Source of the DNA: a virus
Virus record (IMG/VR): IMGVR_UViG_3300047462_000128
Coordinates: 1-39,544 of that record
Strand: one strand, 5' to 3'
DNA: 39,544 nt
Below, in pieces: positions 9,708-34,553 of this stretch (its first letter is position 1; each line of letters begins with the position of its first letter). The position numbers and the translations under genes were made by a program. The notes beneath the pieces are model-generated. The model saw nothing but the letters and a program-made list of their open reading frames with translations, did not search any database and had not been told where the DNA came from.

Positions 9708-9958
9708 TCGCTCTGGTCCCAATCCCGTTGTATTGTGTAGCCAAGCATTGCCACGCTTGCCACTAGTGCGGTGTAACCTCCGCTACCAGCCGCATAGGCG
9801 TAGGAAAGGAAACCATTGGCTAGTTGGAAGCTACAGGCAAGGCTTGTGATCTCCCCTTTTTCTGCACGAGCGAGTAGACTTTTGAGCGTCTGCACCACAC
9901 CCTCTTGAGGGCCTTCTGTTTTGTAGTCCCCGAAAGGCTTGATGATCTCCGCACTCAT
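9704..9958 (-). CDS. Small protein of unknown function (84 aa) before portal
   Basis: ATG 9958 overlaps the ATP-grasp stop (ATGA), and its own stop overlaps the portal start in the same way, so all three genes are coupled. The sequence holds a helix (VVQTLKSLLARAEKGEI), then SLACSFQLANGF and a moderately hydrophobic C-terminal stretch (ALVASVAMLGYTIQR) that could be a weak membrane segment or a core helix. No family is recognised with confidence. It is similar in kind to small phage proteins with an AE-GEI...A pattern. Confidence 0.6.
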   Translation of the reverse strand: MSAEIIKPFGDYKTEGPQEGVVQTLKSLLARAEKGEITSLACSFQLANGFLSYAYAAGSGGYTALVASVAMLGYTIQRDWDQSE

Positions 9959-11232
9959 GGCTGCACCCATCCCCAATCAACCAACTTCTTCATGTCACCA
10001 TTTACTCGCTTTCCAATATCAAGTCGATATTGCTTATTTGAGCAACTAATGTTTTCGAGGGTCCGATAGACACGTTCGCGGGCTTCCCTGACATAATCCT
10101 CACCCAACTTCCTCCCCCGCGCAGTGGCCTTTAGGACCAAACCATCTGCCGGCGCCACCTTAAACATATTGTCTTCATGATCGGCGTACACATTGCAAAG
10201 AAAAATGTGGTTAATGTTGTCGACTCCCACCCCGCCGATGGGGTCACCCCAATCTTTTTGCTTCACATCTTCCAAAGGGTAAGGCGGGACAGAAAGTCTC
10301 ACCGCGATCATACTATCCTGCGTGAGGTCCATCTCTTTCTTGGTCCCCATCGCGGTTTCAAAGAACAAATCCAAAAGAGGCTCTCTCAGTCCTTCAGCCA
10401 AAGCCTCGATAGCGTCATATCCAAATCGTGCAGTTGCCTCCAAAGCATACGCACCCTTCTCATTAACAATACAGTTGATATCAACTGGCCCGCGATATCC
10501 GATCTTAACCAAAAAAGGCTTGAGGCGCTCCACGGTTGCTCTTGTGAGTTTATTGCTATCACGAGCAAGGACAACATTGCCCATACAGCCAGTATTAGGA
10601 CCCAAATTTCCTTCCATAAAACGTTTTTCTTCAAATGTATGATTAAATGGTCTGATAAAGTCCCTTCCATTAAACCAACCCTCCGTGCTAACTTCTACAC
10701 CAGCGACAATACGCTGGACAATCATACTTGTGTTCGGTTTGTAAGTACCAAGTGCCCAAGCCAACTCGTCTTGGTGCGCGATCACCAAAGTTTTCCCTGT
10801 TCCGATATTCCCGTCGGGTTTGAGGACAAAGCCCTCTTGAAAATCAAGCCCCGCCAACGCCTCTTTGGCATCTTGTACACATTTGAAGGGGAAGGTTTCG
10901 GGGGTGGTGATGCCAAGTTTCTGGAAAATTTCCATACCTTTTTGGCGGTCCAGCTCCATCTCATCCATGATTTCGGAACAGGCCAAGTATGGTTTGCCCA
11001 TCCGACGAAAAACCTGTTCGAGGTGACCAAAGCCCACCATGTCACACACCACAAGATCGCTCCACGCCAGCTTTTCTCTCCACGAGGTGGGTCGATCAAT
11101 TATCCCAATGCCGCTCTTTTCATAATCGTGGTTCTTAATCCACATCGCAACATCATTGCCCTCACTCGTCAGGCGCTGCGCAATCCCAAGGCCATCCCCA
11201 GTATCACTGATGATAAGTATTTTCACTGTCAT
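9955..11232 (-). CDS. PurD-like ATP-grasp ligase (GAR synthetase-related)
   Basis: 425 aa, about the length of bacterial PurD. After an N-terminal Rossmann-like part (KILIISDTGDGLGIAQRL) it has the linker helix and GITTPETFPF, comparable to the PurD IPTA..F segment. Next comes the ATP-grasp loop VLKPDGNIGTGKTLVIA. GPNTGCMGNVV matches PurD's GPNTGGMGAY closely, and EATARFGYDA matches its E-N/A-RFGDPE metal/ATP site. The C-terminus ends with the PurD-like RLDIGKR. The N-terminal substrate part is more diverged and lacks the APGNAGT signature, so the substrate may not be phosphoribosylamine plus glycine. The neighbours are terminase and portal, not purine genes. It could make purine precursor or ligate an amino acid to another molecule. 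Confidence 0.8.
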   Translation of the reverse strand: MTVKILIISDTGDGLGIAQRLTSEGNDVAMWIKNHDYEKSGIGIIDRPTSWREKLAWSDLVVCDMVGFGHLEQVFRRMGKPYLACSEIMDEMELDRQKGMEIFQKLGITTPETFPFKCVQDAKEALAGLDFQEGFVLKPDGNIGTGKTLVIAHQDELAWALGTYKPNTSMIVQRIVAGVEVSTEGWFNGRDFIRPFNHTFEEKRFMEGNLGPNTGCMGNVVLARDSNKLTRATVERLKPFLVKIGYRGPVDINCIVNEKGAYALEATARFGYDAIEALAEGLREPLLDLFFETAMGTKKEMDLTQDSMIAVRLSVPPYPLEDVKQKDWGDPIGGVGVDNINHIFLCNVYADHEDNMFKVAPADGLVLKATARGRKLGEDYVREARERVYRTLENISCSNKQYRLDIGKRVNGDMKKLVDWGWVQP

Positions 11233-30027: not shown

Positions 30028-31371
30028 ATGCCCATCATCCCCCTCGACACTATCCACCTCAAACCCGGCCGTATCCGCACGGAGTTTGACGGTGAAGCCA
30101 TCCACCGCCTCGCCAATGTAATCCTAGAAGACGGATTATTGCACGCCCCCACCGTAGATAAAGAAGGCAATCTCTTGGCGGGTGAGCGTCGTCTCCGTGC
30201 CATCACCCTCCTTTCCAAACAGGGCCTCGGTTTCATGTGGGCAAACAAGCGCATTGAGCCGGGCGAGTGCCCCGTGGAGGTTTTTCACTCCACCGAAGAG
30301 CTGATCCTTCTCCGCGCAGAATTGCGCGAGAACACCGAGAGAAGCGACATCACCTGGAAAGAGAAGGTCGCTGCTACGGAACGCCTCTTGAGGTTGCAGG
30401 GAATTGAACGCGAGATACGCGGGGAGCCCGCCCTCCCAGAGCGCATGATGATCCGGGAGTTGGCGACTGAACTTGGCAAAGAAAAAAAGAAATCCGTGCC
30501 AAGTTATGTAACTAACAAAACCCACGAAATCACGAGGGATAACCTACTCGCGGCGTGGCTGGATGACCCGGAGGTCAGTGCGGCAAAAACCGCCAATGAG
30601 GCTTATAAGATTGTGGAGGCAAAACTTGTGGAGGCAAAGCGCAAGGCCCTCTCTCGGGAGTTTAAGACCGCAGCACCCGTGATGCGCCACACCCTAATCC
30701 ACGGCGATGCGAACATCGAACTTGCGAAGTTGAGCAAAAACACTTTCGATGTGATTATCACAGACCCGCCCTACGGCGTTAACATTGATGGATATGCCAG
30801 CCTCCAAGGCGGTGTCGATCACCACTACGATGACAGTCCCCAAGTCCTAGAGGAATTGCTCCACACCTTCTCCACCGAGTTTTTCCGGGTCACCAAGCCT
30901 GAAGCCCACCTCTATATGTTTTGTGACTACACCTGGTTCGAGATCATCCGGGCCAAGCTTTATCCTTTGTGGTACGTTTGGCCGCGGCCGTTGATATGGC
31001 ACAGGAGTGACAGCACCGGCATGTTGCCCCGGCCGCAACACGGCCCACGGCGCAATTACGAGTGTATCCTTTACGCGATCAAAGGTGATAAGCGCGTGCA
31101 GTTTGTTGGAAATGACGTGATAAGCCTCCCATCCGACAAAGGGCTAACCGAAACAACCGCAGCGCGCAAGCCAGTCGATCTCTACGTGGAGCTTTTGCGC
31201 CGTAGCGTCGTGCCGGGAAATCAGATCCTCGATAGCTGTGCAGGGAGTGGCCCGGTGTTTGATGCGGCGGAACGCTTGGAGTGTATTGCGACGGGGATTG
31301 AGTTGAATGAGGCGCTGGTAGGCGTTTGCTCAGAACGGCTTAGGAATATAGCGAAGAGAGCTGGTTTGTAA
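30028..31371 (+). CDS. ParB-domain / DNA methyltransferase fusion (N6-adenine or N4-cytosine type)
   Basis: 447 aa. Residues ~1-90 are ParB/Spo0J-like: LKPGRIRTEFDGEAIHRLAN, then GNLLAGERRLRAITLL (GERR at 52-55). Residues ~95-215 are helical and linker-like. The methyltransferase has motif IV DVIITDPPYGV (DPPY from D246), a target-recognition middle and motif I ILDSCAGSGPVFDAA (D402), the beta-class order. No restriction endonuclease is beside it, so it probably modifies phage DNA for protection or regulation. The target sequence is not evident. It ends two bases before dyad site A. Confidence 0.85.
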   Translation: MPIIPLDTIHLKPGRIRTEFDGEAIHRLANVILEDGLLHAPTVDKEGNLLAGERRLRAITLLSKQGLGFMWANKRIEPGECPVEVFHSTEELILLRAELRENTERSDITWKEKVAATERLLRLQGIEREIRGEPALPERMMIRELATELGKEKKKSVPSYVTNKTHEITRDNLLAAWLDDPEVSAAKTANEAYKIVEAKLVEAKRKALSREFKTAAPVMRHTLIHGDANIELAKLSKNTFDVIITDPPYGVNIDGYASLQGGVDHHYDDSPQVLEELLHTFSTEFFRVTKPEAHLYMFCDYTWFEIIRAKLYPLWYVWPRPLIWHRSDSTGMLPRPQHGPRRNYECILYAIKGDKRVQFVGNDVISLPSDKGLTETTAARKPVDLYVELLRRSVVPGNQILDSCAGSGPVFDAAERLECIATGIELNEALVGVCSERLRNIAKRAGL

Positions 31372-31419: not shown

Positions 31420-33063
31420 ATGCGTCTTATCCAATCTGGCCCAAAAGATGCCCGCATTATGATAGTCGGGGAAGCCCCTGGGAGAGAAGAAGCCCAAAGC
31501 GGCCAACCCTTTATCGGTCCTAGTGGGAGTGAGTTAAACCGCCTCCTTTTGGAGGCCGGTATCAACCGCAGGGAGTGCTTCATCACCAACGTCTGCCACG
31601 CCCAAGCACACAAAAACGACATAGAGCTGTTTTTCCACACAAAAACAGAAGCAAAATCACTTGGCCTTGAGGTGTTTTGGGGGCGCTATCCCAACCAAAC
31701 AGTGAGGGATGGCGTGGCGCAGCTTCTTCGGGATGTCAACGAAGTAAAACCCAAACTAATCATTGCGCTGGGGAATACACCTTTGTGGGCTCTGACGGGC
31801 AAAACAGGTATCATGTCTTGGCGGGGCAGCGCCCTCTCGTGCGACGCAGGGGGCCTTGCCATTCCACTTCTTCCCACAATCCACCCGGCAAACATCCTTC
31901 GCGACTTCTCCAACCGCTACCTTGCTTTGCAGGATTTGCGCCGCGCCGTCAACTTTTTTGGCGACCGCACTTGCTGGTATGAGCCGACCCGAGCTTTCAC
32001 CATCCGACCAACCCTCGATAATGTCAGCAAATTTATCCAAAACCTTCTCTTCGCAATGAGCCTTAGTCCCACCACCATCGCCTGTGATATCGAGACCCGC
32101 CAAGGCCAAATCGCCTGTATCGGCATTGCGACTGACAAAACAAACGCTATCTGCATCCCCCTACTTTGCGTGGAGCGTCCCGAAGGCTACTGGAATGAGC
32201 ATGAGGAATTGCTTTTGTGGACCCTGCTCCGGCAACTTCTCACCCACCCCAACGCTCGGTGCATATTCCACAACGGCGCCTACGACCTCCAATACTTCGC
32301 GAAGCAAATGGGCTTCATGCCGCGGATTGCCCACGACACCATGCTAATGCAACACGTTGCCTTTCCGGGATTGAGAAAATCCCTCGCCGTTTGCGCTTCC
32401 CTCTACTGCACCTATCACCGATATTGGAAAGACGACGGCAAGGAATGGGACAAAACGCTGCCCGAAGAGCAGCTTTGGACCTATAATTGCACCGATTGCG
32501 TGAGGACTTATGAGATATGGGAAGAACTCACAAAAGTGCTTACCTCCCTCAATCTTGTGGAGCAATACACATTCCAAATCGAGGAATTATTTCCTACCAT
32601 CTTGGAGATGATGCTCAGGGGCGTCACCATTGACCTCGACTACCGCGCCTCCCTGGACCAAGGGCTCTCCCACAAACTCAATCAAATCGAGCAGTGGCTC
32701 ACCATCGCGACTGGCCACCCCCTCAACCCGCGCTCGCCGACCAAAATCAAACAGCTGCTCTATGAGGATTTGGGCTTGCCGGTAATCCGCAAGCGGGCGA
32801 CTGGACTTCCCACCACTGATGATGAAGCCCTTGAAAAAATCAAACTCCGCTACCCTTTGATACGCCCCCTTTGCGACAAAATCCTAGAAGCGCGCTCTGT
32901 GGGTGTCTTCCTAAACACCTTCGTCCATGCCCGCGTACCACCAGACGGTCGGATGCGGACGACGTATAACCTTGCCGGTACAGAGACTTTTCGTTTCTCA
33001 TCCAGCGAAGATAGCTTCGGTTACGGGACTAACCTTCAGAACATTCCAAAAGGAAACGAGTGA
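31420..33063 (+). CDS. Split DNA polymerase, N-part: uracil-DNA-glycosylase-like + 3'-5' exonuclease + polymerase thumb
   Basis: 547 aa. Residues ~1-190 are a family-4-type UDG domain: MIVGEAPGREEAQ, GQPFIGPSGSELNRLL and the TIHPANILR motif; the N-terminal CxxC of classical family 4 is absent, so the Fe-S cluster may be lost. Residues ~215-370 are a DnaQ/PolA exonuclease: DIET (D223), FHNGAYD and CTDC (D359). Then a family A polymerase thumb region ends at TFRFSSSED and TNLQNIPKGNE. The stop comes immediately before the place where motif A should begin. The rest of the enzyme is encoded at 33738. Confidence 0.85.
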   Translation: MRLIQSGPKDARIMIVGEAPGREEAQSGQPFIGPSGSELNRLLLEAGINRRECFITNVCHAQAHKNDIELFFHTKTEAKSLGLEVFWGRYPNQTVRDGVAQLLRDVNEVKPKLIIALGNTPLWALTGKTGIMSWRGSALSCDAGGLAIPLLPTIHPANILRDFSNRYLALQDLRRAVNFFGDRTCWYEPTRAFTIRPTLDNVSKFIQNLLFAMSLSPTTIACDIETRQGQIACIGIATDKTNAICIPLLCVERPEGYWNEHEELLLWTLLRQLLTHPNARCIFHNGAYDLQYFAKQMGFMPRIAHDTMLMQHVAFPGLRKSLAVCASLYCTYHRYWKDDGKEWDKTLPEEQLWTYNCTDCVRTYEIWEELTKVLTSLNLVEQYTFQIEELFPTILEMMLRGVTIDLDYRASLDQGLSHKLNQIEQWLTIATGHPLNPRSPTKIKQLLYEDLGLPVIRKRATGLPTTDDEALEKIKLRYPLIRPLCDKILEARSVGVFLNTFVHARVPPDGRMRTTYNLAGTETFRFSSSEDSFGYGTNLQNIPKGNE

Positions 33064-33485
33064 TGGATAACAAAGAGTTTATACGCTTGCTTAACAAAGA
33101 GAAGAGAGCTGCCAACACGTGGGCACACATCAAAAGCGGTCTCCGGCTCGCTATTGAAACAATCCACGAAGCTAACAAGAAATGGTGGATCGACCTTCAC
33201 ACAGACAAGCCTCTGGAGCGCAACGTTGGTGAGATGCTCATGCTCATTGTTAGTGAGATTGCTGAGGCGATGGAAGGTCACCGCAAAAACCTAATGGACG
33301 ACAAACTTACACACCGTAAGACGCTTGAGGTCGAGCTGGCAGACGCGATGATTAGGATTTTTGACCTTGCCGGGGGGCTTGGCCTCGACCTACCAGCCGC
33401 AATAGAGGAAAAATGCCTCTATAATGCTCACCGCTTGGACCACACCCCCGAACACCGCAAGGGCGAACATGGAAAGAAGTATTGA
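33063..33485 (+). CDS. MazG-like nucleoside triphosphate pyrophosphohydrolase
   Basis: 140 aa from ATG 33063, which shares a base with the polymerase stop (TGATG); GTG 33060 is possible. The all-alpha NTP-PPase motif is ISEIAEAMEGHRK-like: SEIAEAMEGH, then EVELADAMIRIFDLAGGLGL and EEKCLYNAHRLDHTPEHR, ending GKKY. It hydrolyses (d)NTPs and may also act on (p)ppGpp-like or damaged nucleotides. It lies inside the split polymerase locus, probably inserted there. Confidence 0.8.
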   Translation: MDNKEFIRLLNKEKRAANTWAHIKSGLRLAIETIHEANKKWWIDLHTDKPLERNVGEMLMLIVSEIAEAMEGHRKNLMDDKLTHRKTLEVELADAMIRIFDLAGGLGLDLPAAIEEKCLYNAHRLDHTPEHRKGEHGKKY

Positions 33486-33486
33486 G

Positions 33487-33732
33487 ATGGATAAGCCGGA
33501 ACAAAACGAGCCAACCTTTACACTTCTTGGCCGCGATCGCCAAGCCCCTGATGCCGTCCGCCAGTGGGCCTACGCACGGGAGCGCGCAGTCAACACGTGC
33601 TTCGCCCCTTTATCCGACCTGCAAAAAGTTGAGGCAGCCCGAAAAATTGCAAATGAAATGGAAGAGTGGCGAAAACTTCACCGGCCCCAAAGCGACACCG
33701 AGATCGCGAAACCAAACTTTTTGGGGAAATAG
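33487..33732 (+). CDS. Small protein (81 aa) between polymerase halves, unknown
   Basis: ATG 33487 is one base after the MazG stop. Its pattern EPTFTLLGRDRQAPDAVRQW, then AYARERAVNTCFAPLSDLQK and a helix AARKIANEMEEWRKLH resembles small phage proteins with a 'LLxRDxxAP..V..WA' motif of unknown function. It is one of two genes that separate the polymerase halves. Confidence 0.55.
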   Translation: MDKPEQNEPTFTLLGRDRQAPDAVRQWAYARERAVNTCFAPLSDLQKVEAARKIANEMEEWRKLHRPQSDTEIAKPNFLGK

Positions 33733-33737
33733 CAGCC

Positions 33738-34553
33738 ATGACTCTTCCCAACATTCGCAAGATGTTCAAACCAGACCAGGATCACATCATTTTCGAGGCC
33801 GACCTCGCTGGCGCTGATGCACAGGTTGTCGCCTGGGATGCCGATGATGCTGACCTCAAGCATATGTTTCGCAACAAACTCCCGGTCCACTGGGAAAATG
33901 CCAAGGCTATTTTTGGGGCCGTGGAACCCCGTCTGCTAACGGCCAAGTCCGACAACGAGGTGAAGGCCCATCCTGAACTTGACAAATACCGCCAATACGC
34001 AAAGGTTGGTGTCCACGCCACCAATTACGGGTGCAAGCCACCCACGCTCGCCAGCCACCTCAACATCACCGTGCCGGCCGCGGCCAAATTCCAAGAAGGG
34101 TGGTTCCGCGCCCATCCTGCAATCGCAAGGTGGATTGAGCGCACAGAAGATGAGTTGATGGCCACCCGGACCGTTCACAACGCCTTCGGCTACAAACGCT
34201 ATTACTTCGATCGGGTGGATGAGGTCCTCCCACAAGCACTTGCGTGGCGCCCCCAATCCACAGTCGCTATCTGCATCAACAAAGGAATGGTCGCCTTCCG
34301 CAAGTGGGTGAAGGAAGAAGGTTTGCGTGCCAACCTGCTCCTCCAAGTCCACGATAGCTTTGTTGGCCAAGTCCACAAATCTCACGCCCGCCTCGTCCTA
34401 CCCCACATCCAAACCCGATGCAGTATCACAATCCCCTACGCTGACCCTTTAACAATCCCCCTCTCACTATCTACGTCCGATCTCTCGTGGGGAGATTGTA
34501 AAAGCTATAGGTTGGGGGATTGGGAAGAGTGCGTCACCACCGCGATTGGCTGA
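33738..34553 (+). CDS. Split DNA polymerase, C-part: family A palm/fingers active site
   Basis: 271 aa. ATG 33738 begins MTLPNIRKMFKPD, which continues the sequence broken off at NLQNIPKG. Motif A is FEADLAGADAQ (D22), motif B is KYRQYAKVGVHATNYG (residues ~77-92), and motif C is LLLQVHDSF (D206), where most relatives have HDE. All catalytic residues for polymerisation are here, and the exonuclease is in the other protein. The two must associate to make a working enzyme. Ribosome binding is through GGGGAAA about ten bases upstream. Confidence 0.85.
   Translation: MTLPNIRKMFKPDQDHIIFEADLAGADAQVVAWDADDADLKHMFRNKLPVHWENAKAIFGAVEPRLLTAKSDNEVKAHPELDKYRQYAKVGVHATNYGCKPPTLASHLNITVPAAAKFQEGWFRAHPAIARWIERTEDELMATRTVHNAFGYKRYYFDRVDEVLPQALAWRPQSTVAICINKGMVAFRKWVKEEGLRANLLLQVHDSFVGQVHKSHARLVLPHIQTRCSITIPYADPLTIPLSLSTSDLSWGDCKSYRLGDWEECVTTAIG

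Follow-up and report, generated by a model that had tools for sequence, protein, structure and literature searches.

A family A DNA polymerase of an uncultivated virus, probably built from two subunits and split at a recurrently broken loop that hosts other genes

The window analyzed here is the complete 39,544-base IMG/VR record IMGVR_UViG_3300047462_000128 of an uncultivated virus, in which terminase, portal and head protein genes are present. Two of its genes, at 31420-33063 (N gene) and 33738-34553 (C gene), encode complementary parts of a DNA polymerase (Table 1). We conclude that their products are very probably the subunits of a single replicative polymerase of family A. A first-pass annotation had reported a polymerase in two genes with a MazG-like gene and an 81-amino acid (aa) gene between them, and had assigned motifs A, B and C to the second gene, the exonuclease to the first; both statements were confirmed, as was its view that joining the halves loses or adds almost nothing.

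The Pfam profile DNA_pol_A is divided at 133/140 between the two proteins without overlap, the N protein matching profile positions 5-133 (5.5e-16) and the C protein positions 140-370 (1.1e-25). Consequently, no part of the domain occurs twice and hardly any of it is lost. The N protein ends in TNLQNIPKGNE, directly before its stop codon, and the C protein begins with MTLPNIRKMFKPD. All three polymerase motifs are located on the C protein, the whole exonuclease on the N protein. Structures were predicted with AlphaFold2 for each half (predicted local distance difference test score, 94.8 for N and 94.7 for C). The N model matches Klenow residues 324-684 (Z about 21) and the C model residues 683-928 (Z about 23), so the two predicted folds tile the Klenow fragment without overlap. 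Based on these alignments, the cut was placed (Klenow residues about 683-687) in the palm loop after NLQNIP and before motif A. The arrangement is that of a split polymerase, i.e., one enzyme in two nearby genes which are complementary and do not overlap in content. Since one chain has the thumb, exonuclease and primer grip, and its partner the fingers and catalytic carboxylates, an active site would have to span both.

Concerning the N protein, the first-pass annotation recognized the exonuclease but missed a uracil-DNA glycosylase (UDG) domain at the N-terminus. Pfam places UDG at residues 6-166 and DNA_pol_A_exo1 at residues 218-374. Residues 1-184 of the model match the family 4 UDG of T. 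thermophilus (1ui0; Z 23, root-mean-square deviation 1.6 over 159 positions). The score against NCBIfam TIGR00758 (family 4 UDG) is 85.6 bits and falls below the curated cut-off of 125.3; the domain is, therefore, named only as a family-4-like member of the UDG superfamily. The exonuclease has the acidic residues and the tyrosine of the DEDDy type, and D223, E225, D289, Y355 and D359 are invariant in 73 of 73 sequences. Further downstream, the primer-grip residue R525, which we take to occupy the position of R668 in Pol I, is kept in 73/73 and Q540 in 72/73.

The C protein has the hallmarks of family A, namely a DNA_pol_A domain, D22 in motif A, K89 and Y97 in motif B, and H205-D206 in motif C, where D206 presumably corresponds to D882 of Pol I. 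The motif B lysine is kept in 73 and the tyrosine in 72 of 75 members. Two positions of the pocket deviate from Pol I: at that of Phe762 (window 34014-34016) every member has His (75/75), whether split or not, and at that of the steric-gate Glu710 (window 33816-33818) Asp is found in 74/75. This combination is predicted to be an unusual nucleotide pocket. Among viral polymerases classified so far, residue 762 is Phe, Tyr or Leu (PMC6302109, PMC9069017), and one survey retained only F, L or Y at this position (PMC9069017). Due to this filter, the polymerase group described here would drop out of that survey.

Profile scans of IMG/VR were used to find relatives and yielded 160 loci, some of them overlapping, which were reduced to 109 polymerases by removing near-copies (90% identity). 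Thirty-eight of these are split and 71 unsplit; the counts describe best-scoring matches and are not population frequencies. In 38/38 split relatives the break is found in one loop, with an N half of the form NLQNIPKG[DN]E followed by a stop codon and a C half starting as M..LPN[IV]RK. More precisely, the N halves end within about nine residues past NLQNIP, typically with KG[DN]E(E), and the C halves restart just before LPN[IV]RK, whereas the same loop comprises 0 to about 30 variable residues in unsplit enzymes. The order of the halves is constant among all split loci, and they always lie near each other. This recurrence of the break is far beyond chance. Thus, the split itself stands as first annotated, but not its treatment as a single case. 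A search for unsplit relatives and a comparison of breakpoints had been proposed as a check, and both favor a functional two-part polymerase: the loop that contains the break varies in length, and unsplit homologs share the neighboring genes. In a tblastn search of phage records, such homologs were found in Microcystis phage Mel-JY34 and in ctMlz233, which have the same UDG-exonuclease-polymerase and the same gene order (methylase upstream, DUF3987-type gene downstream), but in unsplit form. Vibrio phage vB_VspS_VS-ABTNL-3 (MF497422, PVS_29/28/27) has a polymerase of the same family, about 34-38% identical to that of the window, with the same split site but another gene in between; these genes are annotated, and no paper on them was found. 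Since the same-loop split occurs in 38 of 109 relatives including the VS-ABTNL-3 record, an assembly error is excluded.

Four additional split loci were found beyond the set of 109. Two of them (L181, L182) come from contigs, 24 and 51 kb long, which had been binned with genomes of Ignavibacteria and Dokdonella; as both carry a split phage polymerase, they may be phage contigs. When viral contigs were searched with the C protein alone, one distant locus was found, and DNA patterns of the split junction gave few further contigs. Other arrangements were also observed. One locus (L011, 1838-5213) encodes a polymerase in three pieces, i.e., UDG, exonuclease with the N part of the polymerase, and the C part. 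Caulobacter phage Kuura and ctLwi270 (L166, 3959-7366; L167, 1658-4361) show a different split, between the exonuclease and polymerase domains. In L153 (4887-7406, same contig as L049), the N subunit contains an intein with a Hint/splicing domain beside the last exonuclease motif (YNC).

In close split pairs, the ratio of nonsynonymous to synonymous substitution rates (dN/dS), also proposed earlier as a check, is low for either half, with 0.06-0.11 for the N half and 0.07-0.17 for the C half. Both halves are under strong purifying selection in these pairs. Unsplit pairs with usable dS mostly show values of 0.01-0.13; few are higher, and two near 0.29 result from very few changes. The nearest relative of the window's polymerase, L006, is 60% and 56% identical in the amino acid sequences of the two halves. 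Between the window and L006, conservation is 0.75/0.71 at codon position 2, compared to 0.37/0.33 at position 3.

The genes of the locus are tightly coupled, as noted in the first-pass annotation: the stop codon of the N gene overlaps the start of the MazG-like gene (TGATG, 33061-33065), 1 nt separates the MazG-like stop from the next ATG, and 5 nt separate the stop of the 81-aa gene from the ATG at 33738. At the end of the N gene, the glycine codon of the conserved KG peptide is GGA in 23 of 38 split genes, where 9.3 are expected from each gene's own codon usage (p = 2.5e-6), and in 10 of 58 unsplit genes (expected 13.0). Because GGA is enriched in split genes only, the KG peptide seems to double as a ribosome-binding site.

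What fills the gap differs widely. The MazG-like product of the window is assigned to PHROG 5658 (pyrophosphatase, 1.6e-51) and has relatives of 50-66% identity in other phages; against Pfam MazG-like it reaches 14 bits (cut-off 27). For the 81-aa orphan, no match was found in Pfam, PHROGs, NCBIfam or by tblastn in phages; viral contigs gave a single weak match (36% over 36 aa) and no convincing relative. L006 (59% identity) is split with neither gap nor cargo. It follows that the cargo is dispensable to the arrangement, and that the MazG-like gene and the orphan were either gained in the window or lost in L006. Among all split relatives, the spacer ranges from a 4-nt overlap up to 2.9 kb and holds diverse unrelated genes with their own starts. 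These include dUTPase (L037, L048, L071; by similarity also L159 and L174), ribonucleotide reductase (L072; by similarity L182), a DnaQ-type exonuclease (L009), Lon_C-like proteins (L027, L046), methyltransferases (L028, L058) and HNH endonucleases (L038, L056), the latter being absent from the window's junction. The idea of one cargo gene common to split phages was dropped, as the cargo is diverse and often absent.

For the history of the split, a tree of the polymerases was built after removal of the junction columns. On this tree the split and unsplit forms interleave and require six changes (bootstrap 5-8; eight on a larger quick tree), and the split form persists over deep branches. A single origin, i.e., one clade of split enzymes, was rejected (approximately unbiased test, p = 4.5e-6). 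Thus, splitting, or splitting and re-fusion, has occurred repeatedly. Six splits are needed without re-fusion, and eight re-fusions if there was one split; in a two-rate model the re-fusion rate is near zero. Concerning a possible cause, the split loci L050 and L056 have halves which are 94-97% identical; they differ in that L056 has an HNH gene precisely where the ATGA overlap is (Table 1). In the unsplit close pairs L143/L144 and L126/L130, DNA identity drops from about 95% to about 70% at the split point, a switch which suggests a recombination or exchange point at this site. Taken together, L050/L056 and these pairs make endonuclease insertion a plausible cause of some splits. A similar drop in DNA identity, from about 95% to about 70%, is seen at or close to this site in another unsplit close pair, L140/L142.

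We propose that one operon yields both chains, the final AAAGGA (K-G) codons of the N gene acting as putative ribosome-binding site for the next gene. The N subunit would contribute UDG, proofreading exonuclease, thumb and the palm segments gripping primer and template, and the C subunit the fingers and all catalytic carboxylates; the chains may assemble non-covalently around a shared active site. The palm loop has undergone either several openings or openings followed by re-fusion, and the open junction could host other genes, e.g., HNH endonucleases or nucleotide-metabolism genes such as MazG, without harm to the polymerase. It appears likely that this loop is a recurrent break point, that the enzyme works as two chains, and that the gap is an insertion dock which HNH endonucleases enter and which serves MazG, dUTPase, ribonucleotide reductase and exonuclease genes.

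Other explanations of two polymerase genes were considered. At the RNA level, the coding parts might be joined by way of a group I or group II intron or by splicing in trans. Group I introns are common in phage polymerase genes, and an intron was suspected by the authors who reported a split family A polymerase in the OM43 phages MEP401 and MEP402 (PMC10580990). However, no Rfam family was matched up to an E-value of 5 in window 32800-34000, and 13 other sources gave no match at gathering score either, among them MEP401, at whose locus no Rfam intron family was found. The variable spacers with ordinary genes, and an N gene whose stop overlaps the next start, also speak against splicing, which we regard as very unlikely. 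The protein level offers a further route, since split inteins, which join halves by trans-splicing, are known in phage polymerases (MIJ3 PolB, PMC6892783) and a cis intein is present in the split relative L153, at another place in the N half. Nevertheless, neither the N nor the C protein shows an intein or Hint match in the same search which detects the L153 intein, and as the native sequence continues to within a few residues of the break on both sides, there is no room for intein fragments; this explanation is improbable in the extreme.

The two genes between the halves could also indicate a relic broken by insertion, the phage then using the polymerase of its host or another one. This is hard to reconcile with catalytic residues which are all kept on both halves, with the purifying selection in close split pairs, and with a split form which is present across deep branches and, in the nearest relative, lacks any cargo; we give this reading very little credence. 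The earlier view of a functional two-part polymerase rather than a pseudogene is, in contrast, backed by conserved catalytic residues, low dN/dS and complementary predicted folds. Finally, each half is confidently predicted to fold by itself, so the C protein might be a reduced enzyme acting alone and the N protein only a glycosylase and exonuclease. However, the C protein has neither thumb nor the TxR...NLQN grip, this grip is conserved in the N protein although it would be useless there alone, and the halves stay in order and nearby in every split locus, which leaves this possibility improbable. Several points do weigh against a two-subunit polymerase at a recurrently opened loop as proposed here. 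The structures were predicted as single chains. In the comparison of the window with L006, synonymous sites are saturated (proportion of differences about 0.8), and the low dN/dS values are those of other split pairs. The GGA signal keeps its direction under phylogenetic control (3.3 to 0.1 pairs) but falls short of significance, because there are only five independent pairs. Further, an origin driven by HNH endonucleases in general is unsupported, since just 2 of about 40 junctions contain a recognized HNH gene.

Table 1. Features of the split polymerase locus (window coordinates unless a locus is named).
Feature	Position	Strand	Remarks
N subunit gene, 547 aa	31420..33063	+	UDG, DEDDy 3'-5' exonuclease, thumb and first palm part; ends NLQNIPKGNE
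Uracil-DNA glycosylase domain, residues 6-166	31435..31917	+	Pfam UDG 4.6e-25
3'-5' exonuclease domain, residues 218-374	32071..32541	+	Pfam and conserved residues
Polymerase domain, N-terminal part, residues 410-544	32647..33051	+	carries R525, N538/Q540 (NLQN)
Split junction	33049..33065	+	AAAGGA (codons K544-G545, Shine-Dalgarno-like), AACGAG, TGATG
MazG-like nucleoside triphosphate pyrophosphohydrolase, 140 aa	33063..33485	+	cargo gene 1
81-aa orphan	33487..33732	+	cargo gene 2
C subunit gene, 271 aa	33738..34553	+	fingers and catalytic palm, family A polymerase
Motif A, catalytic Asp D22 (Pol I D705)	33801..33803	+	75/75
Motif B / O helix	33990..34028	+	R85...K89...H93...Y97
Motif C QVHD, catalytic D206	34344..34355	+	75/75
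DUF3987 primase-like gene	from 34520		downstream of C gene
Split site, empty	L050 4070-4080		compare L056
Split site, HNH-filled	L056 4559-4999		compare L050

Elsewhere in the window, a ParB-like N-terminal domain fused to an N6/N4 DNA methyltransferase is encoded just upstream of the N gene (30028-31371, plus strand), and a PurD-like ATP-grasp protein with phosphoribosylglycinamide synthetase domains adjoins the terminase gene (9955-11232, minus strand).

Split phage polymerases of families A and B are already known, and it is the recurrence and the shared insertion dock which appear to be new; no paper on the recurrent split reported here was found in open-access text. Among the closest cases is that of MEP401 and MEP402, which also have a family A enzyme with one ORF for exonuclease and N-terminal polymerase part, a C-terminal ORF and a small unknown ORF between them. 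These phages differ in lineage (Zobellviridae), gp13 of MEP401 begins directly with the exonuclease and shows no evident UDG domain, and the break of MEP401 (L168, 6111-8221) lies some 13 residues beyond that of the window, the first chain ending in RYGE and the second starting with MILNADAK. In Aeromonas phages 25 and 44RR, the family B polymerase is split into 43A and 43B with a homing endonuclease or a non-coding spacer in between, and the two chains of phage 25 co-purify with polymerase activity (PMC2988022). This is likewise a phage replicative polymerase in two chains, but of an unrelated family and with few cases, compared to 38 of 109 and very diverse cargo here. The nrdA gene of Aeh1, split by a free-standing endonuclease gene (mobE) with the enzyme still fully active, and a split topoisomerase in T4 have also been reviewed (PMC2988022); nrdA is an essential enzyme split in a similar way, but it is a ribonucleotide reductase and one described event.

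An active site made of two chains and reached repeatedly at one loop represents a natural experiment in how far an essential enzyme tolerates being cut. Adjacent "partial" polA genes in viromes are real rather than errors, and surveys which require a full-length PolA miss such phages. The loop is also a naturally tolerated split site and, as such, a candidate for engineered two-part polymerases. Beyond the polymerase itself, a core gene can turn into a landing place for other genes.

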